The position numbers were made by a program, and so were the translations under genes. This document shows positions 5,266 through 48,826 of a stretch of 64,000 bases of DNA, piece after piece (positions within the stretch are counted from its first letter, which is position 1; each line of letters opens with the position of its first letter). Source of the stretch: an uncultured Dokdonia sp. (GTDB taxonomy: Bacteria > Bacteroidota > Bacteroidia > Flavobacteriales > Flavobacteriaceae); assembly GCF_937910895.1 (NCBI RefSeq), contig NZ_CALEMI010000161.1:62001-126000 (forward strand), written 5' to 3'. The notes beneath the pieces are model-generated. The model was not told where the DNA came from and made no database searches. It saw only the letters and a list, made by a program, of their open reading frames with translations.

Positions 5266-5271
5266 GAATAT

Positions 5272-9515: not shown

Positions 9516-9843
9516 ACTTCTTCTTTTTAATCTTCATAAAACATTTTTAAGTAAGCGCATACTTATCACATCCAATGATGTTAATACATCAGACATATCA
9601 AACAATTGTTTGAGGTAGGTATAACGGTAAATAAGTGTGTGGTGTGGCTATTATGCAAAAAGAAAGACCACTAACGCTTCACATAATAGCATACAAGTAT
9701 AAAACAAAATATCACATTATACAAATAATGATTCAATTATTTTGTAATATATTTTATTAAATATGAAAATGCTCTTTTAATAAATCACTAAATCAAACAT
9801 TTGTATGTTTTTTTCAATTTTATTCCATTCAGAATAAAATACA
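9516..9843. other. AT-rich gene-free stretch upstream of the toxin gene
   Basis: No coding frame is credible here. A 9-bp inverted repeat, GCTATTATG (9647-9655) and CATAATAGC (9682-9690), is separated by 26 bases. Its role is unknown; it could be an operator or a relic end of an insertion. Confidence 0.4.
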
Positions 9844-9876
9844 AAAAGGAGTGCTTAAAATCTAAGCACTCCTTTT
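9844..9876 (-). terminator. Intrinsic terminator for the enoyl-CoA hydratase gene
   Basis: Perfect 14-bp arms AAAAGGAGTGCTTA (9844-9857) and TAAGCACTCCTTTT (9863-9876). Read on the minus strand, the hairpin ends in a T-rich tract and lies 46 bp after the stop of the gene at 9922. Confidence 0.8.
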
Positions 9877-9921
9877 GTATGACTCTCTGTTTTCCTATCT
9901 CTTTTTAAAAAACTACTATTC

Positions 9922-12937: not shown

Positions 12938-13543
12938 CTATAAGTATATACTAAATCCGATAGCACTTACGACTCCTGAAGTCTCAACCTCAAAGTCACT
13001 ATCTTTTGGGCTAGTCTTCAAATTATTATATCCAATAGTAAAATCTACAGAAAAATGTTTGCTGAATAGAAAAACAAGACCTACTCCCGCTTCATATCCA
13101 AAAAGGTTTTCACGATTTTTTGAATCTGTTTCGGTTGAACTACTTCCAACTCCTATACTAGCATACACAATAGGCCTAATGTTGTCTTCTAAAAAATAAT
13201 ATCTTGCAAAAGATTGTGCGAGGATAGAAGAGGTTTTGGTTTCTCCTCCATTTTCAAAATCTAATTTGTTACTTCTATATCGTACTTGTAGTCCAGTTAC
13301 CAAATTATCAATGATAAAATAACCCGCTCTAGGACTGACAGAAAATGAGGTTTCTTTTTGAATATCTCTTTCTCCAAAAAAAGGATCATTTATTGTCACA
13401 TTTTGACTAAGGAATCCAAAATTAGATCCTGCGCCTAATAGAAATGTGCCTTTACTTGTGGGAGAATTTTGATACTCATCAGACTGACCGAAACTAGAAG
13501 TCATACCAATAGTTAAAATTAAAAAAAAGAGTAAAAATTTCAT
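12938..13543 (-). CDS. Outer-membrane beta-barrel protein
   Basis: 201 residues with a clear signal peptide (MKFLLFFLILTIGMTSSFGQ). The mature part alternates polar and hydrophobic residues in short segments, with glycine and aromatic residues at strand ends (AGSNFGFLS, YFIIDNLVTGLQVRYRS, ARYYFLEDNIRPIVYASIGVG, FSVDFTIGYNNL). This matches the small eight-stranded OMP_b-brl fold common in Bacteroidetes. The C-terminus ends in an alternating strand (SAIGFSIYL), as in barrel proteins. Specific function unknown. Confidence 0.75.
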   Translation of the reverse strand: MKFLLFFLILTIGMTSSFGQSDEYQNSPTSKGTFLLGAGSNFGFLSQNVTINDPFFGERDIQKETSFSVSPRAGYFIIDNLVTGLQVRYRSNKLDFENGGETKTSSILAQSFARYYFLEDNIRPIVYASIGVGSSSTETDSKNRENLFGYEAGVGLVFLFSKHFSVDFTIGYNNLKTSPKDSDFEVETSGVVSAIGFSIYL

Positions 13544-13624
13544 GCCAAGAATATTTTAAAATGAGTCTGTGAAACTATCCATTTCTATATAAGATCATAT
13601 TAGGTAAAGGTTAAATATTAAATC

Positions 13625-13655
13625 AAAAAAACCTAACAAATTGCTTTGTTAGGTC
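13625..13655 (-). terminator. Intrinsic terminator for the BNR-repeat gene
   Basis: Arms ACCTAACAAA (13631-13640) and TTTGTTAGGT (13645-13654) with a short loop. On the minus strand they are followed by a run of seven T, 25 bp after the stop at 13680. Confidence 0.85.
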
Positions 13656-13679
13656 CCTTTATGTGTACTATTTCCTTTT

Positions 13680-16600: not shown

Positions 16601-16778
16601 AAAATAAATCAGGTTGTCCAGGCACGCCTGTTACTGCGGCGCTTCGCCCACCTCTAAAAGGTCCTATTAATCGATATTCTAGTGCTTCATACGAAGATGG
16701 GTCTGGTGTTTGTGCATTAGTTTCTAGTGCCATTCCTGAGAGAATACTCAGGAAAAGGAAGAGGATGTTCGTTTTCAT
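13680..16778 (-). CDS. Secreted BNR/VPS10-type beta-propeller protein
   Basis: 1032 residues with a signal peptide (ending ETNAQ). Most of the protein (about 30-720) consists of BNR/Asp-box repeats of the form S-x-D-x-G-x-T-W (SIDGGKTWRQ, STDEGDTWTE, SKDGGIKWTK, TYDGGRSWST, TTDYGKSWKK), building a sortilin-like multi-bladed propeller. The C-terminal about 250 residues include a beta-sandwich-like segment and a helical region with coiled-coil character. Homologues are often named glycosyl hydrolase, but no catalytic residues can be assigned and activity is doubtful. No T9SS sorting domain is seen at the end. The dispersed palindrome (14571-14586) encodes SAFAKAG in the propeller/C-domain linker. 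Confidence 0.85.
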   Translation of the reverse strand: MKTNILFLFLSILSGMALETNAQTPDPSSYEALEYRLIGPFRGGRSAAVTGVPGQPDLFYMGSTGGGVWRTINGGKEWENISDGFFGGSIGAVAVSKSDPNVIYVGGGEKTLRGNVSSGYGIWKTVDAGQTWKQMGLKNSRHIPRIRVHPTNSDIVYAGVLGNIYKPIQERGVYKSIDGGKTWRQTLFSNADAGVVDLIIDPTNHRILYATTWNARRTPYSLSSGGDGSALWKSTDEGDTWTEISTNEGFAEGTLGIMGITVSPVNSNRLYAMVENEKEGGLYTSKDGGIKWTKINDERKLRQRAWYYTRLYADTKDENTVYVLNVNYHKSTDGGKSFSTYNAPHGDHHDLWIAPEDPNRMIIGDDGGAQVTYDGGRSWSTYMNQPTAQFYRVTTDNAFPYRIYVAQQDNSTIRIPHRTEGRSISEDDWESTAGGESAHIAVDPENNEIVYGGSYDGFLTRVNHEKNTVRSVSVWPDNPMGHGVEDMKYRFQWNFPIIFSKHNPDRLYTFSQNVHVSENEGQSWKVISPDLTRNDPEKMKSSGGPITQDNTSVEYYCTIFAAAESPLKEGLLWVGSDDGLVHVSQNGGNTWENVTPKGMPEWMMINSVEPSAFDEGTAYIAGTRYKSGDFAPYLYKTTDYGKSWKKITNGIPSEHFTRVVREDPKQKGLLYAGTETGMYISFDDGNNWKSFQLNLPIVPITDLTIKDNNLIVATQGRSLWIIDDLGMLHQSAFAKAGSNHLFKPKDTYRMGGGGRGESLTTGTNHPSGVMTYFNIKDFDNKKDTISLTYMTVAGDTLQSFSTGAKEKKDQLEAKKGSNLFAWNTRTDGAEQLEGMILWWASLDGPKAVPGNYKVVLNVNGEEQTQSFMIKPNPNAEATVADMQRQHDFISDVNKTVDRAHQSIKKIRKINALLKAFEAQYKDDTRTADLREKAKKMQEEFGEIEKELYQTKNRSGQDPLNFPIKLTNKLGHLNSLVGMGDFGPTDQDVAVKNELAAAIAKQLEAFDAMLDAEVAQFNTEFNSLKLNYLFVED

Positions 16779-16867
16779 TGAATTTTGGTTTGGTATTACG
16801 ATAGAAATTTAAGGAATTCTTAAGAAGGATTCCTGATTTAGGAGTTTTTTAACGTATTTGATAAACA

Positions 16868-16892
16868 AAAAACCCTTTTACAAACAGGGTTT
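16868..16892 (-). terminator. Intrinsic terminator for the MATE gene
   Basis: AAACCC (16870-16875) pairs with GGGTTT (16887-16892). On the minus strand this hairpin is followed by TTTTTTGTTT. It lies downstream of the MATE gene ending at 16931. Confidence 0.65.
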
Positions 16893-16902
16893 GGGTTAAG
16901 TA

Positions 16903-16918
16903 CGCTTTCGCGAAAGCG
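16903..16918. repeat. Dispersed palindrome CGCTTTCGCGAAAGCG
   Basis: Exact 16-bp copy in the intergenic space between the MATE stop and its terminator. Confidence 0.9.
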
Positions 16919-16930
16919 GAAAAAGAAACA

Positions 16931-18316
16931 TCACCCTTCTTCTTGAACGGCAAGGTTCGTTTTGACTTCTCTGTTGAGATAATATCCTGTGACAACTGTC
17001 GAAAGAACATCGGCTATTGGAAACGAAATCCACACGCCCCAAACTCCTAAAAACCGAGGTAATATAAGAATCAACGGAATTAAGAAAAACCCTTGTTTTG
17101 TTAAACTTAAAAGCAAGGCTGGCACCGCTTTTCCAATCGCTTGAAAATAAGCCGCACCAATTAATTGTATAACTATAACAGGAGTTGCCGCAAATACCCA
17201 TCGTAACGCATTGGGTGTACGCTCTATTAAAACCTTATTGTCTGCAAGCCCTTGTGCGTCTGCATTGCTATTGCTTATAAACCATGAGACAAAGAAATCT
17301 GGAACTGCCATGATAATAATAAAAATGGCAAGTGCAAGTCCGCCTGCATATAAAATGGAGATATTTATAGTTTCGCGTACGCGGTCATACTTATCTGCGC
17401 CATAGTTATAACTCGCTATAGGCATAAAACCTTGAGTAACTCCTATGACTGGAAAGAGTGCAAACATTAACATCCTACTAATAATACCATAGGTTGCCAC
17501 GTCTAAAGCATCCCCATAGCTTATAAGCACATTATTCAATAATATAGTGAGTATGGAAATAACGCCTTGACGAGCGAGTGTGACCGCACTTAATCCTGAA
17601 ATTTCTGAAACAATTTTTCTTTTTAACTTTAAGCATTCTGCAACGACTCTAAGTTCACTTTTGAAAATAAAAAACCATACGATAAAGGCAAAGCAAATGG
17701 CATAACTGATAAAGGTTGCCCAAGCGGCACCTTCCATTCCGTAGTCTAATACGTTTATAAGTAAGTAATCCATCCCAATGTTACCGATGGCTGGAAGGAT
17801 CATAGCATACATAGCAAACTTTGGTTTTCCTTCTGCACGGATGACGTTATTACCCATCATACACATAGCTAGCATTACGATTCCGTATAATACAATACGA
17901 TAATACGTGAGCGCCATATCCTTAAATGAATCGTCTGCTCCAAAAAACTCAATAAGCGTATCTTGAAAAATGAGTCCTGATGCGGCTAGTAATCCAGAAA
18001 TGAGAAATGTAAGTGTGATCTGATTTCCAAAAACGCGAAGGGCTTTATCATCATCTCCGGAGCCTAAGGCGCGAGATAATACGGAGCTTCCGCCAATTCC
18101 TACCGCAAGACCTATTGCTGCAATAAAAAAGGTAATAGGAATGACAACAGTTATTGCACTAATTGCTAGTGGACCAATCCATCTTCCTACAAAGATGGTA
18201 TCTACAATCATATTAAGCGACATGACCAAAATACCTATAGAGGCAGGAACCGCTTGTTTAATAAGCAGTTTTGAGATAGGCTCTGTGCCTAAAGCTGTAG
18301 AATTTTTTTTGGACAA
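16931..18316 (-). CDS. MATE-family efflux transporter
   Basis: 461 residues with about twelve hydrophobic helices in two MatE halves. The N-terminus ISKLLIKQAVPASIGILVMSLNMIVDTIFVGRWIG is the classical first helix pair, and ASYNYGADKYDRV matches the start of the second half. MATE proteins export drugs or metabolites by Na+ or H+ antiport across the inner membrane. The gene starts 65 bp after the hemH stop on the same strand, so they may share a transcript. The substrate is unknown. Confidence 0.88.
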   Translation of the reverse strand: MSKKNSTALGTEPISKLLIKQAVPASIGILVMSLNMIVDTIFVGRWIGPLAISAITVVIPITFFIAAIGLAVGIGGSSVLSRALGSGDDDKALRVFGNQITLTFLISGLLAASGLIFQDTLIEFFGADDSFKDMALTYYRIVLYGIVMLAMCMMGNNVIRAEGKPKFAMYAMILPAIGNIGMDYLLINVLDYGMEGAAWATFISYAICFAFIVWFFIFKSELRVVAECLKLKRKIVSEISGLSAVTLARQGVISILTILLNNVLISYGDALDVATYGIISRMLMFALFPVIGVTQGFMPIASYNYGADKYDRVRETINISILYAGGLALAIFIIIMAVPDFFVSWFISNSNADAQGLADNKVLIERTPNALRWVFAATPVIVIQLIGAAYFQAIGKAVPALLLSLTKQGFFLIPLILILPRFLGVWGVWISFPIADVLSTVVTGYYLNREVKTNLAVQEEG

Positions 18317-18381
18317 ACTAGTGTTTTATATTATGCAAGATGCAACCCCTTTTTTAATAACAGTGTTAATGTAACGTGAAA

Positions 18382-19416
18382 TTAGACGGTCACCATTTCT
18401 GCGGTTTCCCAATCTTTAATCCATCCTGCAATCACTGCAGCCCAATCATCCCGATCATTGAGGCATGGTATAGTTGTAAATTCCTTTCCTCCAGCTTCGT
18501 GGAAAATTTCTTCTCCTTCCATAGCGATCTCTTCTAGAGTTTCCAAACAATCAGAAACAAAGGCGGGTGTGACAATCGCCATTTTCTTAAATCCTTCTTT
18601 CCCCATACGTTCTATCGTACGATCGGTGTAGGGTTGTAGCCAAGGGTCAAATCCTAAACGTGACTGAAACGATGTGGAGAAGGTACCAGGCTTTAGGTTT
18701 AGGTATTTGCCTACGTTACGAGTAGTCTCATAACATTGGTGACGGTAACAAAACTCATGTGCTTTTGAAGCCGCGCTACAGCAACTACCATCGATCTTAC
18801 AATGTATTTTGGTTATATCACTCTTACGGATATGTCTTTCTGGAACTCCATGATAACTGAATAACAAATGCTCATAATCCAGTTCTTTAAGATGTTCTCC
18901 TATACTTTCTGAAAGTACTTTTATATAATCTTCTCTATGATAAAAAGCAGGAACATCTGTGATCTTCATCTTAGGAAAATGCTTGGCACGAAGTTCTTCT
19001 GCAAGGACAACAATAGTTTCTGTTGTTGCCATGGCATGTTGAGGGTACAAAGGAAGTAACATCACTTCATCTACACCCTGGTCATGTAATTTTTGCAGAC
19101 CTTGATGTATAGAAGGTGTCCCATAACGCATTGCAATCTCTACAGGTAGTTTTGTGTGTGTTTGTACTTTCTTTTGTAAACGCTCTGTAAGAACAATAAG
19201 CGGTGAGCCTTCTTCCCACCATATTTTACTGTAGGCTTTGGCACTTTGCTTAGGCCGTGTGTTTAAGATAATTCCTTTTACAAGGAGTGCTCGTGCTGCA
19301 TACGGGACATCAATCACCCGCTCATCCATCAAAAATTCTCCTAAATATTTTTTTACATCTTTAGGGTCTGTGCTTTTTGGAGATCCTAAATTAACGAGTA
19401 AAACACCTTTGCTCAT
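18382..19416 (-). CDS. hemH: Ferrochelatase
   Basis: 344 residues, the normal length. The N-terminus GVLLVNLGSPKSTDPKDVKKYL, the block LLPLYPQHAMATTE, the catalytic-His segment LFSYHGVPERH and the C-terminal segment VSDCLETLEEI are diagnostic. The enzyme inserts Fe2+ into protoporphyrin IX, the last haem step. The Cys-containing segment (CKIDGSCCSAASKAHEFCYR) is unusually Cys-rich and resembles the insert seen in other Bacteroidetes ferrochelatases. It lies on the strand opposite the hemA-hemB cluster, 2 kb away. Confidence 0.95.
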   Translation of the reverse strand: MSKGVLLVNLGSPKSTDPKDVKKYLGEFLMDERVIDVPYAARALLVKGIILNTRPKQSAKAYSKIWWEEGSPLIVLTERLQKKVQTHTKLPVEIAMRYGTPSIHQGLQKLHDQGVDEVMLLPLYPQHAMATTETIVVLAEELRAKHFPKMKITDVPAFYHREDYIKVLSESIGEHLKELDYEHLLFSYHGVPERHIRKSDITKIHCKIDGSCCSAASKAHEFCYRHQCYETTRNVGKYLNLKPGTFSTSFQSRLGFDPWLQPYTDRTIERMGKEGFKKMAIVTPAFVSDCLETLEEIAMEGEEIFHEAGGKEFTTIPCLNDRDDWAAVIAGWIKDWETAEMVTV

Positions 19417-38867: not shown

Positions 38868-39044
38868 AGTCTAATTTACTCGACAACTTTTATTAAAGAA
38901 ATTTATGATTTTGAAAAATGGGAATACAATCCAGAAAACTCAGATTGGATAGATACAATGACAGGCGAAGTACTTACAGATTATAAAATGCCCTCTAATT
39001 TACAAGCTATTTTGGATAGTAATATAAATGTGGTTTCTAATTAA
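38868..39044 (+). pseudogene. 5'-truncated remnant of an unidentified gene
   Basis: A frame without a usable start reads ...IKEIYDFEKWEYNPENSDWIDTMTGEVLTDYKMPSNLQAILDSN... to a TAA at 39042. The composition looks like real protein, but I recognise no family. It marks the left edge of the accessory island, directly after the AddB-like gene. Confidence 0.45.
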
Positions 39045-39065
39045 AATTAAGGTCATATACTAAGG

Positions 39066-39191
39066 CATTCTTGCAACCCATCTTTAAAATCGACAATGAT
39101 TTTAGGACATAGTAACACGAAAACAACAGAAATATATACCCAAGTAGCTAATAATCATATAAAAACAATTAAAAATCCATTAGATTTGTAA
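39066..39191 (+). pseudogene. C-terminal remnant of a tyrosine recombinase
   Basis: The frame reads a degraded HSFATHL-like start, then LGHSNTKTTEIYTQVANNHIK and IKNPLDL before TAA at 39189. LGHSxTKTTEIYT with the nucleophilic Tyr is the C-terminal hallmark of XerC/D- and IntI-like integrases, and an (S/N)PLD ending is common in integron-type and Bacteroidetes integrases. The rest of the gene is gone. It ends 43 bp before the first cassette boundary (39234), so it may be the remains of the recombinase that built the array. Confidence 0.7.
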
Positions 39192-39233
39192 AAAACATAA
39201 TGGATATATGTGTGCCAGTATACTTGTTCCTTT

Positions 39234-39247
39234 GTTGTAAAACATTA
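39234..39247 (+). repeat. Left arm of cassette A
   Basis: GTTGTAAAACATTA is complementary (13 of 14) to TAACGTTTTACAAC at 40858-40871, just after the stop of the enclosed gene. It corresponds to the R' end of an attC-type site. Confidence 0.6.
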
Positions 39248-39269
39248 GAATAGAATTACATTAAAACCT

Positions 39270-40856
39270 ATGAAACCAAACTTTGAGGTAATTTTTAAAC
39301 AAAAAATCAAGTATGCAAATATCTTGTTTACCATCTCAATTTTTTACATCCTAGGAATTTTCGTTTTCAATTCAAATATTCAAGAAACGAATGATAGAGA
39401 AAAATATCTATATGACAACTTATACTTTAAAAAGGAAAGATTAAATAGACTGAATACGTATGAAGAAAATAAAATCAAATTTGTTAAATCTTTTACATTT
39501 GCTTACCTAAAGCACAATAATAATGGGAAGTTCGAGGACACAATCAAGTTAGGCTTTCATTATCTCTATTTATACGACACAGATGGTTTTTCTCCTAGTT
39601 TCCAAGATTATCCAAATATTAAGCAATTTGAAATTCCCAAAGCTAACAAGGACTCAATCAATACAATTATTGAAAATTGTGAATCTTTCGCTAGTGAATT
39701 AAATCTATTAATTGATTACGAAAATATTGATTTCAAGACAGCTTCTGAAATTAGTAAACAGAAGCTCGATTCAATTTTTAAGTTTAAGAAAATTTCTGAT
39801 ATTTTAGATAATGAATGGGTTGAAAGCCTATTAAAACTAGTCAAAAACCCAAATGATAAAGAAATTAATTATCGATTTATCGACTACATTCTCACAGGAC
39901 ATCATTTGGGCTATCCAGATGGGATAGGTGGTTTCAGACCAAGGAATTTTTATATCAATAATAATAATTCTGAAATAAGAGATGATACAAAAGGGCATTT
40001 TTTGTCAGCATATTTAAGAAATTTAAATTTAATTGACTTTAAAGAATTTTTAAGAGAGGATTTAAAAATTTCTTATGACCAACTAAAAAAATTTAAGGAA
40101 CAAGATAAAAGACTAAATACAAGTATTGTAGGTATCAACATTGATTTTAATTATATTTTTATACTCTCTGGTTTAGTGATTTTCTTTTTCTATACTTTAT
40201 TTTTCGTATATCATCGTTTAGAATTAGAAAGTATTGCTAAAGATTCAACAAAAAACGAATATCTATTCCCAAATTTTGGAATAATTGGCTGTCCATTTTT
40301 AAAACTAAATCCTGACCCTATAAAAAATAGATTTAATCACATTTTCACCCACAGTGTTTGGTTAATATTTTTAATAACACCAATAATAATTTTGTTTATT
40401 GGCTACTTATTTCGATATAATTTGATTGAGGTTCTTAATGATGATTTTCTCATTTCTAACTTAACCTATGATAAAAGTGAAGACATTACGTCTTTTTTTG
40501 GCGACTTAGTTAATCTAACTGCTCTTTTCTTTTCTTTTTGGATGTTTATTCAATTAACGAAAGCTAATATTGAAAGCTCTATGAAGGAAATACCAAAAAT
40601 TAGAGCTTATTATGCATTGATAATAATTATCATATTTGGAATTTTATCATATTTTAATATTATTCCTTCATATATGATTTATTCAGAATATGATGGTGTT
40701 GACATTATCGCTTTATTTTCTAATTTCATTTTTTACTTACAAATTCTAGCTTGGATAATTTTCGTCTATTATTCAATTATGAAATCATCTTTACTAGGTG
40801 CGTTCTTATCTATAATTGCATTAATAATTAATATAAGTCTACTATTTATGACATAA
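39270..40856 (+). CDS. Cassette A: membrane protein of unknown function
   Basis: 528 residues, no family recognised. One N-terminal helix (about 16-33) is followed by a large soluble Lys/Asp/Asn-rich domain (about 34-285) and then about six hydrophobic helices (FIFILSGLVIFFFYTLFFVYH, SVWLIFLITPIIILFIGYLF, LALFFSFWMF-like, YYALIIIIIFGIL and two near the C-terminus). It is very AT-rich compared with flanking core genes. It is flanked by complementary ends, which suggests capture as a cassette. Confidence 0.6.
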   Translation: MKPNFEVIFKQKIKYANILFTISIFYILGIFVFNSNIQETNDREKYLYDNLYFKKERLNRLNTYEENKIKFVKSFTFAYLKHNNNGKFEDTIKLGFHYLYLYDTDGFSPSFQDYPNIKQFEIPKANKDSINTIIENCESFASELNLLIDYENIDFKTASEISKQKLDSIFKFKKISDILDNEWVESLLKLVKNPNDKEINYRFIDYILTGHHLGYPDGIGGFRPRNFYINNNNSEIRDDTKGHFLSAYLRNLNLIDFKEFLREDLKISYDQLKKFKEQDKRLNTSIVGINIDFNYIFILSGLVIFFFYTLFFVYHRLELESIAKDSTKNEYLFPNFGIIGCPFLKLNPDPIKNRFNHIFTHSVWLIFLITPIIILFIGYLFRYNLIEVLNDDFLISNLTYDKSEDITSFFGDLVNLTALFFSFWMFIQLTKANIESSMKEIPKIRAYYALIIIIIFGILSYFNIIPSYMIYSEYDGVDIIALFSNFIFYLQILAWIIFVYYSIMKSSLLGAFLSIIALIINISLLFMT

Positions 40857-40857
40857 A

Positions 40858-41147
40858 TAACGTTTTACAACACTGGTAACCATTGCACAAGTTCATTTTT
40901 TGAAAAAAATGTGTTTGTTACTTTTTAAAAGATTTATAAGATGTTGATTTTCAATAAAAATCATTTTTTTTAATTCATCAAAATAACATTAATTTGATAA
41001 AAAACCTAGTTGCGCAACAGACACACTGTATAAAAATAATAGCGGTATGATCGCTAAACCTAAAGTGAAATATATAAATCAAACAACAGTAAATAACGGA
41101 ACAGTAAGCGCATTAAAATCCGCTACTTTTCAAGAACTGTGTAGAAT
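40858..41147. repeat. attC-like palindromic site after cassette A (interrupted)
   Basis: Begins TAACGTTTTACAAC (complement of the cassette's own left arm). After a 137-bp insertion it continues with TGTATAAAAATAATAGCGG (from 41028), whose complement appears as CCGCTACTTTT (41120-41130) followed by AAGAACTGTG. The whole can fold as one long imperfect stem-loop, as attC sites do. The right end is damaged, probably by the nearby IS110 insertion. Confidence 0.5.
40882..41018. mobile_element. MITE-like insertion, possible IS1182 derivative
   Basis: About 137 bp, non-coding, bounded by ATTGCACAAG (40882-40891) and an inverted, diverged CTAGTTGCGCAAC (41006-41018). Both resemble the terminal repeat GTTGCACAAGTC of the IS1182 element at 45811. 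The bordering bases GGTAACC on the left and (T)GTATAAAAA on the right are the same as around that IS. Confidence 0.45.
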
Positions 41148-41271
41148 TCCAAGCTTTTTCCTCATTAATTTAAGCACATACTTTTTGGGGCATTGTTGAA
41201 GTGGAATAATTCTTCTACGTCGATTTATTTCCAATCCAACAAGCCTAACAGCATAACTACATTCTTATAAT

Positions 41272-42237
41272 TTAATGTAATACGGAGCGATACTCTCTAT
41301 CATACGGCACTCCAGATTTTGCAATAGCAAAAGCCTGCTTCAATAATTTGTTACATACTGCAATCAGCGCTACTTTACGTGGTTTTCCCTTGGCAACCAT
41401 TCTATTAAATAGGGCAATACAAGCTTTGTTATGTTTTTTGGCCGAAAAACTACAAAGGAAGAGCATTGAACGTAATCTTCTATTACCCATCTTACTGATC
41501 CGTGCTTTTACGTGTAGACTGGATCCAGACTGACGAATAATTGGTGTTAATCCAGCATAGGAGCATAATTGCTTGGCGCTCTCAAACTTCTCAAAACCTT
41601 CAGTAAGGACAATGAGTGTTACGGCTGTTTTTCTACCAATACCAACAATACTCTCTATCCGAGTTAAAAGATCCTGATGTTCTCGTTTGACAATCCTCAG
41701 AAGTTCCAGTTCTAGAAAGTCGACCTCTTTCTTTAATCTTCTCAGGTTTTTTTCTAATGATCGCACAACAAGCTTCACAGGATTTCCAAGAGCAGCCTCA
41801 CCTTCGAGTTTAGTCTTAGTCATTACGATCTGCTTTGTATATTGATTAATAAGGCTCATCAACTGTAAACAGCCTACCTGGTCTTTTGTACGTTCTTCCC
41901 AAAGACGTAAGTCTGCCTGCTGGGCATACTGACAGATCATCTTTGCATCACTCTTATCTGTCTTAATCCTTGAGAGGTGCATCTGAATGTAACGCTTAAC
42001 AGCAAGTGGATTCTCAACGCTTACCTTGATGCCAGACTGAACCAATGCGTTTGCCAACTGCACGTGATAAAAGGCAGTAGATTCCATTACGCAGTGTGAT
42101 GACTCGTCAAGAATATCAAGAAAATCATCGAAACCTTTCTGACAATTGGTAAACTGATAATGAACATCGCAAGAGTCTACAACATCAAAGACATCTTTGC
42201 TAATGTCTATCCCAAAATAATTTGTAATTTTATTCAT
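41272..42237 (-). CDS. IS110-family transposase
   Basis: 321 residues. The N-terminal DEDD (RuvC-like) domain begins YFGIDISKDVFDVVD and continues with CVMESTAFYHVQLANAL and RIKTDKSDAKMICQYAQ, carrying the acidic residues. A coiled segment follows (about 150-190). The C-terminal Transposase_20 domain holds IESIVGIGRKTAVTLIV, CSYAGLTPIIRQSGSS with the candidate catalytic Ser, and MGNRRLRSMLFLCSF. Members of this family recombine DNA guided by a bridge RNA encoded in the element (established for IS621). The enzyme appears intact. Confidence 0.92.
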   Translation of the reverse strand: MNKITNYFGIDISKDVFDVVDSCDVHYQFTNCQKGFDDFLDILDESSHCVMESTAFYHVQLANALVQSGIKVSVENPLAVKRYIQMHLSRIKTDKSDAKMICQYAQQADLRLWEERTKDQVGCLQLMSLINQYTKQIVMTKTKLEGEAALGNPVKLVVRSLEKNLRRLKKEVDFLELELLRIVKREHQDLLTRIESIVGIGRKTAVTLIVLTEGFEKFESAKQLCSYAGLTPIIRQSGSSLHVKARISKMGNRRLRSMLFLCSFSAKKHNKACIALFNRMVAKGKPRKVALIAVCNKLLKQAFAIAKSGVPYDREYRSVLH

Positions 42238-42261
42238 ATTATTAGTTTATGAAAGAACAAC

Positions 42262-42402
42262 ACTACAGTAGTTTCAACAACTTAAAAACGAGATCGGAAG
42301 TCTCACAGAACTGTTCGAAATAAGTGTAGTAAAAGAGAGGGGGTCCTCAAGAAAAACGAGATCAATGTCTCAATATACAAGATGACCTTGCTCCTCTCTT
42401 TT
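42262..42402 (-). ncRNA. Putative IS110 bridge RNA
   Basis: Upstream of the transposase, two abutting structural modules are visible (minus-strand transcript). Module 1 is closed by CCTCTCTTTT (42393-42402) with AAAAGAGAGG (42331-42340). Module 2 is closed by TGTAGT (42325-42330) with ACTACA (42262-42267). Each encloses an internal loop and a small hairpin, and both share AAAAACGAGATC (42352-42363 and 42284-42295) followed by GTCTCA. Two similar stem-loop modules with different loop sequences is the architecture of bridge RNAs (target and donor loops). Position in the leader suits IS110 proper. Confidence 0.5.
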
Positions 42403-42466
42403 GTTCTTTCTGATTCATATTAAAATTACCTACTTTTAATAAAATCTAAACTTAAGATATACAAGA

Positions 42467-42492
42467 CAGTACAAACAAACAGTACAAACAAA
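42467..42492 (+). repeat. Tandem 13-bp direct repeat
   Basis: CAGTACAAACAAA occurs twice head to tail, ending 1 bp before the ATG of the next gene. Confidence 0.6.
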
Positions 42493-42493
42493 A

Positions 42494-42871
42494 ATGAAAA
42501 TTAAAAATGTCACAGCAATATGGATTTTAAGTAGTAACGATAGTGTGCCTCAAATAACATACAAAGGGATAACAGAAAGAATAGAAAACATTAGTGAAGA
42601 GGAAATTAAAAATATTGTGAAAGAATTTCCTGAATTATTCCAAGAAGAAATCCCTTCTAAGCACTTAGTTCAATGGAAAGTCTTAATGAATCAAGGCTCA
42701 AATAGACCAAAATGGATTGCTAAATCCAATACACAAGAAGAAGATATTAAAAATCTTAATACCTGTGATATATTCCGAAATAGATTTAGAAATTCTATTG
42801 AATCAGAACCACTCAGTTATAACTTAATAGAATGGGGAATAAATTATATAAACGAATATTTTAATCAATAG
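42494..42871 (+). CDS. Hypothetical protein, 125 residues
   Basis: No family recognised. It is a soluble, acidic, AT-rich reading frame (KIKNVTAIWILSSND, ISEEEIKNIVKEFPELFQEE, LSYNLIEWGINYINEYF) without signal peptide or membrane segment. It lies between the IS110 element and the IS200-like element inside the accessory island, in the same orientation as the cassette genes. Complementary cassette ends are not recognisable around it, perhaps because of the insertions. Confidence 0.5.
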   Translation: MKIKNVTAIWILSSNDSVPQITYKGITERIENISEEEIKNIVKEFPELFQEEIPSKHLVQWKVLMNQGSNRPKWIAKSNTQEEDIKNLNTCDIFRNRFRNSIESEPLSYNLIEWGINYINEYFNQ

Positions 42872-42876
42872 AATTC

Positions 42877-43396
42877 CCCGAGGCTCTGCCTCGGGTGTAG
42901 CGTAAAGATATTCATATATTTGTGTTCATGAGTGATCATATTCACAAGAGTCATAATAAAAGTTTGCTTTTATACCATTTTGTTTGCCCTATAGAATATA
43001 GGAGAAAAGTATTGAATGATTCAGTTTCAATGACATTCAAAGATATCTGTTTGCAGATAGAAGAGCGTTATGAGATTCATTTTGTTGAAATAGGATTAGA
43101 TGGGGATCATGTTCATTTTCTGATTCAGAGCATTCCGATGAACGCTCCAAAAAAAATAATAGGAGCGGTCAAAAGTATCACTGCAAAAGAAATTTTTAGA
43201 CTTCACCCTGAGGTGAAACAGATGCTTTGGGGAGGGAAGTTTTGGGCGAGTGGTTACTATGTGAATACAGTAGGTCAATACGCGAATGAAGAAGTGATAA
43301 AGAAGTACCTTCAGAATCAAGGGAAGTCAAAATATACTGAGTTGCACAGAAATCAGCTCAAATTATTTTGATACCCCGACGGCTCTGCCTCGGGGT
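42877..43396 (+). mobile_element. IS200/IS605-family element
   Basis: A single transposase gene is bracketed by two similar hairpins: CCCGAGG-CTCTG-CCTCGGG (about 42878-42897) and CCCCGACGG-CTCTG-CCTCGGGG (about 43374-43395). Such subterminal hairpins with no inverted repeats are typical of elements moved by single-strand Y1 transposases. There is no accessory tnpB. Confidence 0.75.
42922..43371 (+). CDS. tnpA: IS200/IS605 transposase TnpA (Y1 HUH)
   Basis: 149 residues; an ATG two codons downstream (MSDHIHKSHN) is an equal candidate. LLYHFVCPIEYRRKVL is the N-terminal motif. HVHFL in DGDHVHFLIQ is the HUH metal-binding motif. The nucleophilic Tyr lies in the C-terminal helix (VGQYANEEVIKKYLQNQG). 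It cuts and joins single-stranded hairpin ends. Length and motifs look intact. Confidence 0.92.
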   Translation: MFMSDHIHKSHNKSLLLYHFVCPIEYRRKVLNDSVSMTFKDICLQIEERYEIHFVEIGLDGDHVHFLIQSIPMNAPKKIIGAVKSITAKEIFRLHPEVKQMLWGGKFWASGYYVNTVGQYANEEVIKKYLQNQGKSKYTELHRNQLKLF

Positions 43397-43398
43397 AG

Positions 43399-43872
43399 TT
43401 CATTAAAAAAGAAAGAGATAAAAATAAAATTTGGCAAAGAATAGGAACAATTGTTTTACCCTTAGTATCTCTTCTAATTGCTGGATTTTCTATCTATAAT
43501 AGTTCTACACTTCAGTTAGAATCAATGAAAATTGAAAAACTAAAATTGAATAGAGAAATCATAATACCAGAGTACAAAAAATTTAATTCCTCATTCTCCA
43601 AAACTATGGAGAAGCTTGATTTTAATCGTAAAATGTCAATCACAAATGAGATGATTGCAACGCAAAGGGCTCTTTCTGAATTAGCACCATATATTGATAG
43701 TACAGATTATAGCAGTATACTAGTTGATTTTTCTAAATATTTTCATTTAATTAAAGCAAACCAAAACACCGATTCTCTAAAAGTGGAACAAAAAGATTCA
43801 ATAGTAGATATGTATTTGAATGTTGAACACAAGGTTAGGAAAGCAATTTCAAAAAATATTAATGAGGAATAA
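43399..43872 (+). pseudogene. Membrane-anchored protein truncated by the IS200 insertion
   Basis: The open frame continues upstream of its first ATG (43525) to a TAG overlapping the IS end at 43396. The upstream part encodes a good membrane helix (IGTIVLPLVSLLIAGFSIY). The rest is a soluble helical domain (MEKLDFNRKMSITNEMIATQRALSEL). So the native start has probably been lost with the IS200 insertion. A 115-residue form could be made from 43525. No family recognised; it is likely another cassette gene. Confidence 0.5.
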
Positions 43873-43876
43873 AACA

Positions 43877-44066
43877 ATACCCTACACTATATATAGCAAA
43901 TAGGGCAATTAGCGTTTAAGCCAAAGGTTGTTGCTTATTTGCAAGGTCGCCAAATCTTTTGATTTGGTATTAAAAGAAAAAAATTAAAACAAAATAAAAA
44001 GATTTGGCTTGTGGTTAAACCAAAAACAATCGCTTGTTTTCTGCCCAACTTGCCATATATTTATCG
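43877..44066. repeat. attC-like palindromic site before the SMEK gene
   Basis: About 190 bp of gene-free, strongly self-complementary DNA. TATATATAGCAAATAGGGCA (from 43893) is imperfectly complementary to TGCCCAACTTGCCATATAT (44042-44060). Inside, GCCAAATC (43949-43956) pairs with GATTTGGC (44002-44009). It ends CG then TTAGGC, the recombination point expected of an attC site. Confidence 0.5.
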
Positions 44067-44083
44067 TTAGGCAACATTAAAGA

Positions 44084-45091
44084 ATGATTACAAGAGGAAC
44101 AATAATTGGAAAAATAATTGACGATTTAGCTCGTCTTCTATCTCAAATAGAACTTCGCAATAAAGTTGGCTTACTTGATTTAACAAAAGTGAGTGAAGAT
44201 TTTTTTAAGGAATTATTAAACATTGTTTATGATTTGAATCTCACCAACCTAAATGGAGATAGAATTAATGAGCCAGGAATTGACTTAGGTGATTTAAGTA
44301 AGAATACGGCTTATCAAATAACCTCGACCAAAACTTCCGATAAAATAAATAATACCCTCGAAAAGGTAACTAAAGAACAACTTGGAAAATACTATATCAT
44401 TAAGATTCTAATTATTGGAACAAAACAGAGTAAATATTCAATTAAAAAAAACCTTATAACTAAAACAAAACTTAATCCAGAAAAAAATATTTTGGATATA
44501 AATGACTTAACAAGAGATATTTCAACATTAAACATTGACAAATTGGAAACTCTTCATACTTTCTTTTCCAGATCATTTAGGGAATTAATCATTGAATTAG
44601 AACCTATGGACGTAGATGGGGATTTTGAAAGTTCTATTTATCGTTACGTTGAGCAAATACCAAATCATCCTCCTAAAGATTTACAAAAAATGGATGATTA
44701 TTATGGTGAACCAAATGACCTTATTGAATACACAAATGTTTATAATAAATTAGCCTCTATACCTAAAAGTCAAAGAGAATATATTTGCTTAATAGCTGAA
44801 CGAGGAAAATTGAAAACTAGAGGATTAACTTATATGCATGAAATTGCTTGTACTAAATTAGCTGGAATTTTAGGAATCGAAGAAAGAACACTATTTAATA
44901 GAATGGCATATTTGGAGGATGAGAGTGTTGTTTACTTTTCTGAAGATACAGATGGACATGATAGACCAAATTATAAATATCAAATTTCTAGTGAATATTT
45001 GAATTACATTATTACTTTCTTAAAAGAAAATGGACTTTCAGTTAGAAAAACTATTGTAGCTATGGATTTTTCTGTTTTAGGAAACGTGTAA
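44084..45091 (+). CDS. Cassette C: SMEK-domain protein, possible defence nuclease
   Basis: 335 residues. The N-terminal about 170 residues match the SMEK domain as I know it from Bacteroidetes (LIDDLARLLSQIELRNKVGLLDLTK-like start, FFKELLNIVYDLNLTNLN, PGIDLGDLSKNTAYQITSTKTSDKI). IDLGD followed by AYQITSTK has the D...QxK pattern of PD-(D/E)XK nucleases. The C-terminal part (about 215-335) looks like a winged-helix (LTYMHEIACTKLAGILGIEERTLFNRMAYLED). Left arm GTTAGGCAACATTA (44066-44079) is complementary (11 of 14) to TAACATTGCCTAGC (45092-45105), so the gene sits in a cassette. Function unknown. Confidence 0.65.
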   Translation: MITRGTIIGKIIDDLARLLSQIELRNKVGLLDLTKVSEDFFKELLNIVYDLNLTNLNGDRINEPGIDLGDLSKNTAYQITSTKTSDKINNTLEKVTKEQLGKYYIIKILIIGTKQSKYSIKKNLITKTKLNPEKNILDINDLTRDISTLNIDKLETLHTFFSRSFRELIIELEPMDVDGDFESSIYRYVEQIPNHPPKDLQKMDDYYGEPNDLIEYTNVYNKLASIPKSQREYICLIAERGKLKTRGLTYMHEIACTKLAGILGIEERTLFNRMAYLEDESVVYFSEDTDGHDRPNYKYQISSEYLNYIITFLKENGLSVRKTIVAMDFSVLGNV

Positions 45092-45172
45092 TAACATTGC
45101 CTAGCCGTATATAATTTATTGCTAGTTCTAGCCTATTTACGAAATTAGGTGCTTAAACCATATACAAACACG
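45092..45172. repeat. attC-like site between cassettes C and D
   Basis: An 81-bp imperfect palindrome: R''-like GCCTAGC (45099-45105), GTATAT (45107-45112) pairing with ATATAC (45160-45165), inner arms AGCCTATTT and AAATTAGGTGCT, ending at the G of GTTAGCT (45172). Size and layout match short attC sites. Confidence 0.6.
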
Positions 45173-45194
45173 TTAGCTGTAATATTCAAACTAA

Positions 45195-45827
45195 ATGGAC
45201 AAGAATAAAATTTACGAATTATTATACAATAAATCAGAAATTTTGCAGAAACGGTTAAATCGTATTTTTTTGTTTTTATTTGTTTTTCCTTTGATTTATT
45301 TTCTATTAGATAATTCCTTTGTTTCGGAAGTGAAAACTCCTTTAATTTCAATAGATCAAACCGAAATTATTTTACTTACATTTCCAATTGTATATGCCAT
45401 ATTATTGCTCTTAATTGTAATTCTTAGCGATAGAATAACTGATATTAAAGAAGAATTGGATGAATTTGAGAGTCACAATAACCTTGTAACAAAAAGGGTG
45501 ATGAAGTTGCTCTCTCCTGTGTCAACTGTAGCAGATTTCGCGAATAAGGTTAATTCAAAAGGTTTCTTTGGCTGTCTCGGAGTTCTTCTTATTTACGCGC
45601 CCATTATCATTTTTTGTTTAATATTCCCGTTTGTATTTTTTGGATTCACCATTTACGATAATTTCACATATGCAGGTGAGTTCAAAGAATTAGCTGTGTG
45701 GAGTTCTATTCTTGCTCTATGGACATTTATAGCAACTATTGTTAAACTAATTACTGCTATCAAAGAGAATCAAATAAGTCGTGCGAATACTACAGCTAAC
45801 AACGGTAACCGTTGCACAAGTCCATAA
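45195..45827 (+). CDS. Cassette D: four-helix membrane protein
   Basis: 210 residues as read, no family recognised. Hydrophobic segments at about 22-40, 55-80, 125-150 and 165-190 flank a charged linker (DRITDIKEELDEFESHNNLVTKRV). Left arm GTTAGCTGTAATATTC (45172-45187) is complementary (15 of 16) to GAATACTACAGCTAAC (45785-45800), which lies inside the 3' end of the gene. The last about 8 residues and the stop codon come from the IS1182 end at 45811, so the native C-terminus has been changed. Very AT-rich. Confidence 0.6.
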   Translation: MDKNKIYELLYNKSEILQKRLNRIFLFLFVFPLIYFLLDNSFVSEVKTPLISIDQTEIILLTFPIVYAILLLLIVILSDRITDIKEELDEFESHNNLVTKRVMKLLSPVSTVADFANKVNSKGFFGCLGVLLIYAPIIIFCLIFPFVFFGFTIYDNFTYAGEFKELAVWSSILALWTFIATIVKLITAIKENQISRANTTANNGNRCTSP

Positions 45828-47496
45828 TTCTGATGAAAATGGTGCATTATAAGCCTCTCTCTAGAGACTTTTTTTATGACACCTACTATTGAGATGGAAT
45901 TTTAGAGACCTTTATATCGAAGCAAAACAGTGATGAGAGGATGATTTACAAAATCCTAACAAAAACTCCATCCCTACTCCACTTTTTACCCGTTTTTGAG
46001 CGAATTTGAGATACTTCTTCAAATTATAAGCCATAGCACTCAGATGCATCACCTTGTTTGCCTGTTGAAGTCCTATCGTATTGATCTTCCTGAGTCCCAT
46101 AAATTGAGTTAACGTACCAAAAACAGGCTCTACGGTGCTTTGTCGTTTGCCTTTCATATAACGCCCTTGGGGACTTTTCATTCTAGCGATGTTACGTTCA
46201 TATTCCTCTCGATAATACGTGACTGTAAATTTCTTCTCCTGTGCACTCTTGCCTAAACATGCACTTCGGATCGGACAGTCGATGCATAATCGCTTTGATC
46301 CTCGGTATTCCTTCTTCTTCGTCTGGTTCTTCTTCTCTATAAATACTTTCTTAAAAGGGATGATCTTTCCCTGTGGACATACATAATGATCGTTTTGCTC
46401 ATCATACTCAAAACCATCGGGACCACCTTTATACGTACCGTGTGCGGGGATAAAACTCTTCAAACCCATTGCCTCTAAAAAAGCATAGTTCTCACCACTA
46501 CTATACCCCGTATCGGCTACACAGTTTTGCCATACAAAGCCTTCTTTCCATAAACGACGTTGTAAACGGTTGGTTATATCCTCTAGCTGTTGACTATCCT
46601 TCCCATCGGCATGATAGGCACGTATATCGGTAATCACATGATGAGCTGTGTCTACACTCAACTGACTGCAATAATTTAGCTTTCGTGCCTTACCAGGTTT
46701 GACACTAATGCGAGCATCAGGATCTGTGGGACTGTAGTGTGTCTTATTACTGGTATAACGACTCCCTTTATTCCCAGAACCTGGACGTTGGTCTTGGTCT
46801 TTTGACCATTTCTTATTTCTCGATTTTATACCGTCTAATTCCTTTTGACTAGCGGTAATGATTTGTTGTTCTTTACTCGCTTTATTTTCCTTCGCTTTGC
46901 GAAAAACCTCTTTATCACGAGCACTAATATGACGGATCTCTGATAAATGAGCCTCCAAGTCTTGAGAAGGAACCTTCAGCTCCAAACTATCCATACTCGC
47001 ATTGGCCTTTACAGGAGCAGAGTCTATGCACTGCGTATGACCGCTGACCATTCCTTTAGAAATACACATCTGTAAAATATGCGTAAAAACAGATTCAAAT
47101 ACGTCTTCTGGAAATAACTGACGCGTACGACTGATCGTACTATGCCAAGGTAATTCTTCATCAATATCATAGCCTAAAAAATATAAAATATCCAAGCGCA
47201 TACTACAATGATCGATCAGCTTACGATCACTTATGATATTTTCTAAATAGCCTACTAAACAAAACTTAAAAAACACTACAGGATCAATACTCTTTTGACC
47301 ACTACTTCCATAATACTGATCAGTATCCGAGTACAAAAAATCTAAATGTAACACCTCTTTTAAAAGCCTATAGAAATTGGTGACGGGAACCCGATCACTT
47401 AATTGAAAACTGTTGAATAATTTCTCCTGATAAATCTTAAATCCTTGCATACAACAAGTTACTAATTTTATGTATTTTTAGCAAGACTTGTGCAAC
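45811..47496 (-). mobile_element. IS1182-family insertion sequence
   Basis: 1,686 bp bounded by perfect 12-bp inverted repeats GTTGCACAAGTC (45811-45822) and GACTTGTGCAAC (47485-47496), enclosing one transposase gene. It is inserted in the attC-like site between cassettes D and E; GGTA flanks both sides (45804-45807 and 47499-47502 region), a possible short target duplication. Confidence 0.85.
45912..47450 (-). CDS. IS1182-family transposase
   Basis: 512 residues. The N-terminal DUF772-type domain (VFFKFCLVGYLENIISDRKLIDHCSMRLDILYFLGYDIDEELPWHSTISRTRQLF) is followed by a DDE domain. Acidic residues occur in CIDSAPVKANASM, CVADTGYSSGENYAF and VEPVFGTLTQFMGLRKI. A Cys motif (CIDCPIRSACLG) precedes the last part, as is usual for IS1182 members. 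The frame is intact and the terminal repeats match perfectly, so the element may still be active. Confidence 0.92.
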   Translation of the reverse strand: MQGFKIYQEKLFNSFQLSDRVPVTNFYRLLKEVLHLDFLYSDTDQYYGSSGQKSIDPVVFFKFCLVGYLENIISDRKLIDHCSMRLDILYFLGYDIDEELPWHSTISRTRQLFPEDVFESVFTHILQMCISKGMVSGHTQCIDSAPVKANASMDSLELKVPSQDLEAHLSEIRHISARDKEVFRKAKENKASKEQQIITASQKELDGIKSRNKKWSKDQDQRPGSGNKGSRYTSNKTHYSPTDPDARISVKPGKARKLNYCSQLSVDTAHHVITDIRAYHADGKDSQQLEDITNRLQRRLWKEGFVWQNCVADTGYSSGENYAFLEAMGLKSFIPAHGTYKGGPDGFEYDEQNDHYVCPQGKIIPFKKVFIEKKNQTKKKEYRGSKRLCIDCPIRSACLGKSAQEKKFTVTYYREEYERNIARMKSPQGRYMKGKRQSTVEPVFGTLTQFMGLRKINTIGLQQANKVMHLSAMAYNLKKYLKFAQKRVKSGVGMEFLLGFCKSSSHHCFASI

Positions 47497-47621
47497 AGGT
47501 ACAACGTATAAAAAACATAGCCAAAGGCGATGGTTAAGGCTAATTAATTCCCCACAAATCCACTATCTTTAAGCGGAACACCTCATAACTATAGCAAGGC
47601 TACGTTTTTTATACGAGGACG
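47497..47621. repeat. attC-like site between cassettes D and E, right part
   Basis: ACAACGTATAAAAAACATAGCC (starting 47501, 22 bases) pairs with GGCTACGTTTTTTATACG...ACGTTGT (47599-47624), apart from one bulge and one mismatch. The IS1182 element separates this part from the left end GCTAAC at 45795-45800. Gene-free; ends at the G of GTTGTATGC. Confidence 0.6.
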
Positions 47622-47707
47622 TTGTATGCAAGCTTACACTCGCAACATACAATAAAAATTGAAGCAAAGATTAAGCAAAGAGTATTAAACCGTTCTAAAA
47701 TTTAAAT

Positions 47708-48088
47708 TTGATACTTATGAGTAGAAAAACACTTCGTATAAATAATTTTGGAGCAAGTATATTGAGTGAGTTTGATATATTTTACATTTGGGTTACTGAA
47801 ATTCAACGGGCATATCCTGAAACTGCAAATAAACCAGATATTAATAAGGTTAAATTTAATTGGTGTTGGAATGGATATAATGGTATCGGTGAAATAGATT
47901 ATTTCAATAATACAAAGACCGTTTGTAATGTATTTGGTGAAAATTTTTCAAATATGACTGTTCTCTCTAACTCAAAAAAACAACAACCTAATGGGCGTTC
48001 AAATTGTGCATTATACAATGATGGATCTTTGGAAGAATTATTTAGCAGAATATTGAATATGATTGACTTACCAAATCTCGAAAAATAG
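47708..48088 (+). CDS. Cassette E: hypothetical protein, 126 residues
   Basis: No family recognised. It is soluble, AT-rich, with several Trp, Asn and Cys (FYIWVTEIQRAYPET, FNWCWNGYNGIGEIDYFNN, SNCALYNDGSLEELFSRIL). An ATG three codons in (MSRKTLRINN) may be the start. Left arm GTTGTATGCAAGC (47621-47633) is complementary (11 of 13) to GCCTGCATACAAT (48111-48123), which marks it as the last recognisable cassette of the array. Confidence 0.55.
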   Translation: MILMSRKTLRINNFGASILSEFDIFYIWVTEIQRAYPETANKPDINKVKFNWCWNGYNGIGEIDYFNNTKTVCNVFGENFSNMTVLSNSKKQQPNGRSNCALYNDGSLEELFSRILNMIDLPNLEK

Positions 48089-48110
48089 ATAAAGATTGTT
48101 ATGGTAAAAA

Positions 48111-48123
48111 GCCTGCATACAAT
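48111..48123. repeat. Right arm of cassette E
   Basis: GCCTGCATACAAT, complement of the arm at 47621-47633. The rest of this site (to about 48205) is AT-rich, and its partner end is not recognisable. Confidence 0.5.
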
Positions 48124-48205
48124 AAAGTATAAGAATTTATGGCTTACATTTTCAATAATTGAATAATCTGAACAAATAATTGTAAACTGAAATTGCAAAG
48201 AACAA

Positions 48206-48826
48206 TTATATCTTATCAATATCCCTTTTTGTCAATCCCGTAGCTTTCTTAATAAAATCATTATCCTGACCTAAGCCTTTAAGACGTTTCGCAATTTCAA
48301 TAGCTTTGTTTTTTTCGTTTTCCTTTTTTTCAAGTTTTAATTTGAAAGCTTTCATCTCTTCACTTTCCTTGCGTACAAGTTCGTAAAGACCGTTATTTTC
48401 AAACTCTTTAATAAGACCTTCATTTGCAAAACTGTAGTAATCGGTTTCTGTAATGATGAGATGTTCTATCACTTTAATATCAATGATCTTTCCTACTTTT
48501 AAAAGTCGATCTGTAAAGTTTTTATCACCCTCAGAAGGTCTTAAAACCCCACTAGGATGATTATGTATCAAAATCATTTTAAGAGCAAGTTTATAGATCC
48601 CCATTCTAAAAACATCGGGTGGAGATACATTTACACGGTTTGCACCGCCTATGCTAATTAACTCAACAAATAAGACATTGTTTTGATTATCCAAACCAAC
48701 TACCCAAAAATATTCCTGACTACGGCGTATTTTATTTTGTCGCAATAGAATTTGTTGCATAATCTTATACACATCACTAGCGTTTAAGATTTGGATTTTT
48801 TGATCTTCGTTAAGGCGTACGTTCAT
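48206..48826 (-). CDS. RadC/JAB-domain protein
   Basis: 206 residues. The core is a JAB/MPN-like RadC domain: EYFWVVGLDNQNNVLFVELISIGGANRVNVSPPDVFRMGI, then the metal-binding HNHPSG motif, then GKIIDIKVIEHLIITE with the Asp/His pair. RadC-like proteins without the N-terminal helix-hairpin-helix domain are common beside mobile regions in Bacteroidetes. Despite the name they have no proven repair role. The C-terminal about 50 residues are a charged coiled coil (KLKLEKKENEKNKAIEIAKR). Confidence 0.88.
   Translation of the reverse strand: MNVRLNEDQKIQILNASDVYKIMQQILLRQNKIRRSQEYFWVVGLDNQNNVLFVELISIGGANRVNVSPPDVFRMGIYKLALKMILIHNHPSGVLRPSEGDKNFTDRLLKVGKIIDIKVIEHLIITETDYYSFANEGLIKEFENNGLYELVRKESEEMKAFKLKLEKKENEKNKAIEIAKRLKGLGQDNDFIKKATGLTKRDIDKI

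Follow-up and report, generated by a model that had tools for sequence, protein, structure and literature searches.

A decayed array of probable integron-like gene cassettes in an uncultured Dokdonia, and related cassette loci in flavobacterial genomes

The array in the window

We analysed a 64,000 nt stretch of DNA from an uncultured Dokdonia sp. of the Flavobacteriaceae (contig NZ_CALEMI010000161.1, positions 62,001 to 126,000), hereafter the window, in which a run of co-oriented genes between positions 39,234 and 48,127 had been described in an earlier note as an integron-like array of gene cassettes. The run lies behind the remnant of a tyrosine recombinase gene, contains attC-like sites between its cassettes and is interrupted by insertion sequence (IS) elements (Table 1). 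Taken as a whole, the locus is best explained as a decayed, IS-interrupted array that worked like an integron, part of a gene-capture system, integron-like in plan, that occurs in many flavobacterial relatives, a reading to which we give a probability of about 0.87. It is called decayed because the recombinase is broken and IS elements are sitting in two of the sites.

Cassettes 1, 3, 4 and 5 each carry a private pair of complementary arms. The eight arms are located in the interval given by the note, each is found once in the window, and the pairs match at 13/14, 11/14, 15/16 and 11/13 positions, as listed there. All four pairs are mismatched at position 11, where an A at the cassette start faces a C at its end; neither this feature nor the recombinase remnant had been remarked upon. 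The arms exceed what shuffled sequence yields, contrary to one of the signs against cassettes set out in the note. Within 38,999-48,300 those of cassettes 1 and 4 mismatch at position 11 alone, while 300 dinucleotide shuffles of the segment gave at most one such pair (mean 0.003). The arms of cassettes 3 and 5 contain further mismatches and failed our strict arm filter, with the same A and C at position 11; of the four window pairs this filter recovers two, and at 5476-6670 it picks up another pair that is likely due to chance.

A search of the window's own genome with an IntI profile gave the remnant as a match under the cut-off (G000:C161:100931-101185, E=5.7e-5, 24.3 bits). The remnant has two in-frame stops, most of the gene is not seen, and it is placed directly before cassette 1 in the same direction. 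Its ending is the same as that of an intact recombinase on contig C53. Intact relatives are located on contigs C53 and C71 of this genome, each followed by a GTT cassette start, and no match to TIGR02249 over the cut-off was found in the genome. As a guess, the intact C53 recombinase could act in trans on the window array. An intact attI dyad is absent from the presumed attI stretch (39191..39233), which in a DNA search of the own genome matched only itself.

The sites were searched for with R1, a covariance model built from 62 sites of relatives with the window sequence excluded. Against 88,539 bases R1 matched 47,500-47,624 (E=1.3e-7), 43,882-44,069 (E=7.1e-7) and 45,102-45,175 (E=6.1e-4); over the whole genome 47,500-47,624 was retained at E=6.8e-6, among 11 matches at E up to 1. 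No R1 match follows cassette 5 in the window, and the array presumably ends there. The description of the intervals between genes as palindromes of 80-290 bp applies to part of the array only, since IS elements occupy two of them: the interval between cassettes 1 and 3 spans 3.2 kb and includes an IS110 element, an IS200 element, one gene and one gene fragment, and that between cassettes 4 and 5 holds a 1.7-kb IS element which splits the site.

Table 1. Array features and inserted elements, in window positions (attC-like and attI assignments are putative)
Feature	Position	Strand	Basis or remark
Recombinase remnant, broken C-terminal end of the array's tyrosine recombinase	38931..39185	+	weak IntI-profile match
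Presumed attI region, degenerate	39191..39233	+	between recombinase stop and first GTT; by position/reading
Cassette 1	39234..40871	+	arms 39234-39247 and 40858-40871
Cassette 1 gene	39270-40856	+	528 aa; no Pfam match at E 0.1
Cassette 1 attC-like site, split twice	40858..42466	+	direct reading; no match by R1
Relic with IS1182-type ends in cassette 1 site	40876-41022 (region 40870-41028)		6-bp duplication ACACTG
IS110-family element in cassette 1 site	about 41132-42456		both flanks resemble intact sites of L062/L063
IS110-family transposase inside attC-like site	41272..42237	-	Pfam PF02371 and PF01548
Gene of degenerate cassette 2	42494..42871	+	125 aa; start arm not recognisable
IS200-type Y1 transposase	42922..43371	+	Pfam PF01797
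5'-truncated gene of further cassette	43399..43872	+	by reading; listed frame 43525-43872
attC-like site, 188 bp	43882..44069	+	R1
Cassette 3	44066..45105	+	arms 44066-44079 and 45092-45105
Cassette 3 gene	44084-45091	+	335 aa; SMEK domain, Pfam SMEK_N E=4.9e-39
Short attC-like site, 74 bp	45102..45175	+	R1
Cassette 4	45172..45800	+	arms 45172-45187 and 45785-45800
Cassette 4 gene	from 45195	+	210-aa frame, end runs into IS
Cassette 4 attC-like site, IS-split	45797..47624	+	by reading
IS element splitting cassette 4 site	45805-47500		6-bp duplication ACAACG at 45799-45804 and 47501-47506
Transposase of IS in cassette 4 site	45912..47450	-	Pfam DDE_Tnp_1_6, DUF772, DDE_Tnp_1
Right part of split cassette 4 site	47500..47624	+	R1, scored as full-length match
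Cassette 5	47621..48123	+	arms 47621-47633 and 48111-48123; gene 47717-48088

Cassettes and their rearrangement in related loci

Arm pairs in which a start A faces an end C at position 11 are referred to below as class A/G. In a first set of 20 recombinase loci from other genera of the window's family, 17 contained co-directed cassettes with private arms under the strict filter. With the window array, C71 and C53 taken in (23 loci, 334,371 bp), class A/G accounted for 198 of 248 G/C-bounded pairs, and the next class for 12. A second set took the best 80 of 566 loci, all 80 of them named; sequence upstream of the tyrosine recombinase served as its control because the reverse strand mirrors the same pairs. 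Downstream, 142 of 175 pairs were A/G (326,624 bp), against 2 of 59 upstream (669,305 bp); among pairs without any other mismatch the counts were 97/99 and 0/4. All but one of these 80 loci have no near-identical match in the first set, and dropping that one left the counts unchanged. An A/G cassette was present in 35 of the 47 second-set loci with at least 1.5 kb downstream.

In a separate count, 175 non-overlapping cassettes were compiled (172 from relatives, 2 from the window and 1 from C71), with a median length of 638 bp. Arm positions 5-9 vary freely between cassettes, yet agree with the cassette's own far end in 173-175 of the 175, an agreement that is partly by construction as the filter tolerated one mismatch. 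Gaps between neighbouring cassettes, the lengths of which were not chosen by the filter, fall into narrow classes: of 123 gaps under 260 bp, 118 measure 108-125 or 180-187 bp and five measure 26-64 bp. The longest reading frame is on the cassette strand in 144 of the 147 relatives' cassettes of up to 2 kb. Cassettes are mostly single-gene and co-oriented, and C71 carries a 2.7-kb cassette with several genes.

Re-ordering of cassettes was found in a relative, locus L065. There, cassette C precedes D at 5,632-6,372 and D precedes C at 16,357-17,098, both 100% identical, and C is found again at 12,106 ahead of another cassette. Identity of the repeats begins and ends within a few nt of GTT. Neighbours differ in 25 of the 25 comparisons in which both neighbours are known; these come from nine clusters of repeated cassettes, none of which spans more than one locus, and L065 contains five of them. 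Repeat boundaries, taken from 43 segments of at least 200 bp and at least 90% identity, are no more than 10 nt from a detected cassette start in 41 of 82 cases, against 3.6% at random. A fixed gene order in related genomes, which the earlier note had named as a sign against cassettes, is thus not what the relatives display; the window's own cassettes presumably moved in the same manner, the order changes having been seen in relatives. Together with the recombinase remnant ahead of the array and the attC-like sites found by R1, these rearrangements bear out the proposal of integron-like cassettes. A further repeat is located in L069, where one array contains two copies of a 2.26-kb cassette (7777-10036 and 16824-19083), within which a repeated stretch of some 1.45 kb, which may be an IS, is found again.

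Of 199 family genomes, all from different genera, 175 have R1 matches at E up to 1e-4, with at most 17 candidates scored per genome. Recombinase matches at E up to 1e-60 were found in 103 of the 199. All 16 regions picked by R1 matches contain A/G arms, 11 of them from genomes without a recombinase match at that threshold, and their 164 pairs comprise 135 A/G on the leading strand and 2 on the other. The frequency of the sites, and the entry of IS elements into them, would also suit dispersed palindromes, such as terminators or elements resembling REP sequences or MITEs (miniature inverted-repeat transposable elements), scattered between accessory genes with no cassette recombination. In that case arms common to both ends of a gene unit and arrays placed directly behind one recombinase would not be expected, and this explanation is highly improbable. 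We rejected it on account of the repeat boundaries enriched at cassette starts, the changed neighbours of repeated units, and the cassette arms in every R1-picked region.

Recombinase, attI region and site structure

The recombinases were compared with IntI by the residue spacing between the GKxxKxR patch and HxLRHSxA, which requires both motifs and was not measurable in 31 of 81 new-type recombinases and 7 of 20 IntI. The spacing is 100 residues in all 13 measurable classical IntI and 58-63 in 49 of 50 measurable new recombinases (L104, at 246, is the outlier). These 49 are without the IntI additional domain around patch III. Consistent with this, when the C53 protein is aligned with V. cholerae IntI4 (PDB 2a3v), IntI residues 178-247 correspond to just 26 of its residues. 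A tree of 96 proteins separates the new group (80) from IntI (13), with branches supported at 95/95 and 100/100; it includes only three further recombinases, two of which have the longest branches, and its root is not fixed.

The best NCBIfam model for the C53 protein is the XerA-like NF040815 (site-specific tyrosine recombinase/integron integrase), at 222.6 bits with a cut-off of 220; the C71 protein scores 197.4, below that cut-off. By sequence, the best PDB entries for the C53 protein are 4a8e and 5hxy. The predicted fold of a relative from Arenibacter (24-row alignment, mean pLDDT 81.4, pTM 0.58) is nearest to Xer structures and IntI4, with 2a3v ranked third (Foldseek E=2e-15). The catalytic domain is like that of XerA, XerC, XerD and NF040815, whereas the flavobacterial type adds about 90 N-terminal residues, downstream cassette arrays and dyads. 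This N-terminal region (residues 1-90 of alignment A1), common to the flavobacterial recombinases, is lacking in C71 and unmatched in many more distant loci of the 566 set.

The stretch ahead of the first GTT was scored for an inverted repeat in 46 loci, and in 32 of them the repeat exceeded all ten shuffles. The presumptive attI dyads of flavobacteria measure mostly 22-29 bp and usually end 3-6 nt before GTT; by reading, the L arm of a site stops at about this distance too.

For 83 non-redundant sites, circularised as in an excised cassette, the predicted DNA folding energy of the bottom strand averaged -30.0 kcal/mol, compared with -25.7 for the top strand and -11.6 for mononucleotide shuffles; the bottom strand was the more stable in 82. 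In the predicted fold of the circle the outer arms, contributed by the two ends of the cassette, form one helix. The 62 sites with gaps of 112-125 were aligned, and their bottom strands share this outer helix and a covarying L helix. Several pairs are G.T on the bottom strand and mismatches on the top: one beside the core in 62/62, one in the L helix in 61/62, and one at position 11 in 62/62, the last being selected by the filter. The spacer has 4-5 nt on one side (3 in one site) and 2 nt on the other. Extra bases in the L helix were found in 4/62 sites on the L''-R'' arm and 14/62 on the other. Regular extrahelical bases, 2-3 on the R''-L'' arm as in attC, were not found in these relatives' sites. 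In classical attC sites the extrahelical bases direct strand choice (PMC2727003), and the I2 helix of IntI docks them (PMC7790495).

On these patterns, the head tyrosine recombinase, transcribed along the array, would insert circular cassettes, mostly of one gene, at the attI dyad behind its own gene. Each cassette would end with an attC-like site, the outer arms of which, taken from the cassette's own ends, would base-pair along some 14 nt once the cassette is an excised circle. The substrate would be the folded bottom strand, since the G.T wobbles and the asymmetric spacer favour folding of that strand, and the wobbles may stand in for the extrahelical bases that IntI reads through its I2 helix. 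Exchange would take place at or beside G^TT, with the exact cut presumed.

A different integron-like reaction, in which the sites recombine as double-stranded DNA in the style of Xer and the hairpin is a by-product or terminator, would be in keeping with the missing I2 domain, the XerA-like best model and the dimer-type attI dyad. Such a reaction needs no match between the distant ends of a cassette, yet these match while neighbouring arms differ; and the invariant wobbles pair on one strand only, the strand that the predicted folds favour. We therefore regard duplex recombination as unlikely, and a single-stranded substrate acted on by this recombinase as the probable arrangement.

Relation to integrons

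The classical integron is among the closest known systems. A chromosomal integron or a CALIN with ordinary attC sites, the IntI integrase having been lost, would have the same plan: cassettes, R and L arms, a GTT core, a dyad adjoining the recombinase and a bottom-strand fold. In addition, locus L176 (G203:C1:1200000-1219999) combines new-type cassettes and sites at 3840-6505 with a classical IntI about 4 kb away, the clearest mix of the two types among 20 classical IntI loci of the phylum. These 20 loci have no A/G excess (A/G 2 and G/A 4 of 56 pairs, both A/G pairs being in L176). Real cassettes are suggested there by exact 9-nt arms, which extend to position 10 at a rate of 0.52 against an upstream background of 0.25. 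R1 matched below 0.01 in two of the 20, L176 (four matches) and L187 (one). Of 395 phylum genomes, 105 have a classical IntI over the cut-off; almost all of these belong to classes other than the window's, and the frequency is higher than expected from the literature cited here. Among the 107 phylum genomes with a listed IntI match, one belongs to the window's class and none to its family. This distribution, the separate grouping of the recombinases and the site helix without a regular extrahelical base all stand against a classical origin, which is very unlikely; we rejected it for want of the IntI domain and of an A/G excess in the classical loci.

The window system is very probably an integron in the wider sense. 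It shares with IntI/attI/attC systems, sedentary chromosomal integrons and CALINs a head recombinase, a presumed attI-like region next to it, co-oriented cassettes, the unpaired spacer and a variable terminal structure. Unlike them, its recombinase is co-directed with the array, its sites combine G.T wobbles with private arms of about 14 nt and a fixed A.C at position 11, its presumptive attI in flavobacteria is a dyad of mostly 22-29 bp, and R1 matches extend to 175 of the 199 genera sampled from the window's family. It is not classical: two features by which the IntI family is defined, the additional domain and the regular extrahelical bases, are missing.

Several observations weigh against this account. 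The strict filter found no cassette in three of the 20 first-set loci (L054, L056, L066), of which L056 and L066 end within about 250 nt of the recombinase and L054 extends for about 6 kb cassette-free; 12 of the 47 second-set loci with at least 1.5 kb downstream had no A/G cassette. Half of the repeat boundaries (41/82) are away from detected starts, many of which by reading belong to IS copies or to starts that went undetected, and L065 supplies most of the repeats. The bottom-strand bias is weaker for the core alone (74/83) and the linear form (72/83), and random upstream segments are already bottom-favoured in 53/83. Sites in a linear array face arms of different cassettes, and excision sites would pair less well. 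Genome-wide, R1 is weak for 43,882-44,069 (E=0.051) and 45,102-45,175 (E=0.033). Finally, the one family relative of the window's SMEK gene (41%) has no arms on its 9-kb contig.

Eight loci outside Bacteroidota were included, and three contain cassettes obeying the position-11 rule. The first unit behind the recombinase obeys it in a Spirochaetes metagenome-assembled genome (MAG), L132, and a Micrarchaeota MAG, L135, as do two later units in a Nitrospirae MAG, L123; these MAG contigs may be misplaced. R1 matches none of the three, nor L112, which also counts against the account above.

We lean, with some confidence, towards a broader proposal: that these loci represent a second integron lineage, without I2 domain or extrahelical bases, which recognises folded single-stranded sites through their G.T wobbles. 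This lineage would be a main platform for gene capture in Bacteroidota, occurring in almost all genera of the window's family and extending to Nitrospirota, Spirochaetota and a Micrarchaeota MAG contig. Single-strand recombination in integrons has been attributed to acquisition of the I2 helix, direct proof of causality being unavailable according to the same source (PMC7790495). If the proposal is true, single-strand cassette recombination would not depend on that innovation, and the system would provide a natural means of testing the need for I2 and a large reservoir of unstudied cassette genes, some of which carry FRG, Abi_C or SMEK domains, and might yield a new recombination tool. Integrase searches use the IntI additional domain as a profile (PMC8352920), which a domain-less cassette system would escape. 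Reviews count Bacteroidota among integron-bearing phyla (PMC8618304, PMC9668308), and in the account of IntegronFinder 2.0 a single complete integron is named for Bacteroidetes proper, that of Salinibacter (PMC9024848). Searches of open-licence papers, bioRxiv preprints being outside that scope, gave no description of the present system.

Cargo and inserted elements

The cargo genes of the window are mostly without a name. Two window cassette proteins were searched against the 199 family genomes, and the own genome apart one relative was obtained (G138, 41%). The N-terminus of the SMEK protein of cassette 3 matches the PADLOC model Aga_REase-PNTD1-PNTD2 (E=1.7e-37), which we take to represent Argonaute-associated nucleases. 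Among the relatives, six of 10 cassette proteins were scanned, giving two with FRG, one with Abi_C and three without a match. The FRG or Abi_C proteins come from cassettes in L062, L067 and L072 and hint at phage-defence cargo.

The IS200 element of the window cut a further cassette. The IS at 45805-47500 presumably belongs to the IS1182 family. Some IS elements (IS1111-attC) target classical attC sites. In the window, both IS1182-type entries into attC-like sites are at a single motif just 3' of R'', with the 6-bp duplications ACAACG and ACACTG. Another IS1182-type element is located at this motif in L016 (about 13000-14750), with an imperfect duplication, and the pattern suggests that IS1182-type elements may target attC-like sites. 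On C71, an element resembling the window's IS1182-type one follows the 2.7-kb cassette at the same motif of the site.

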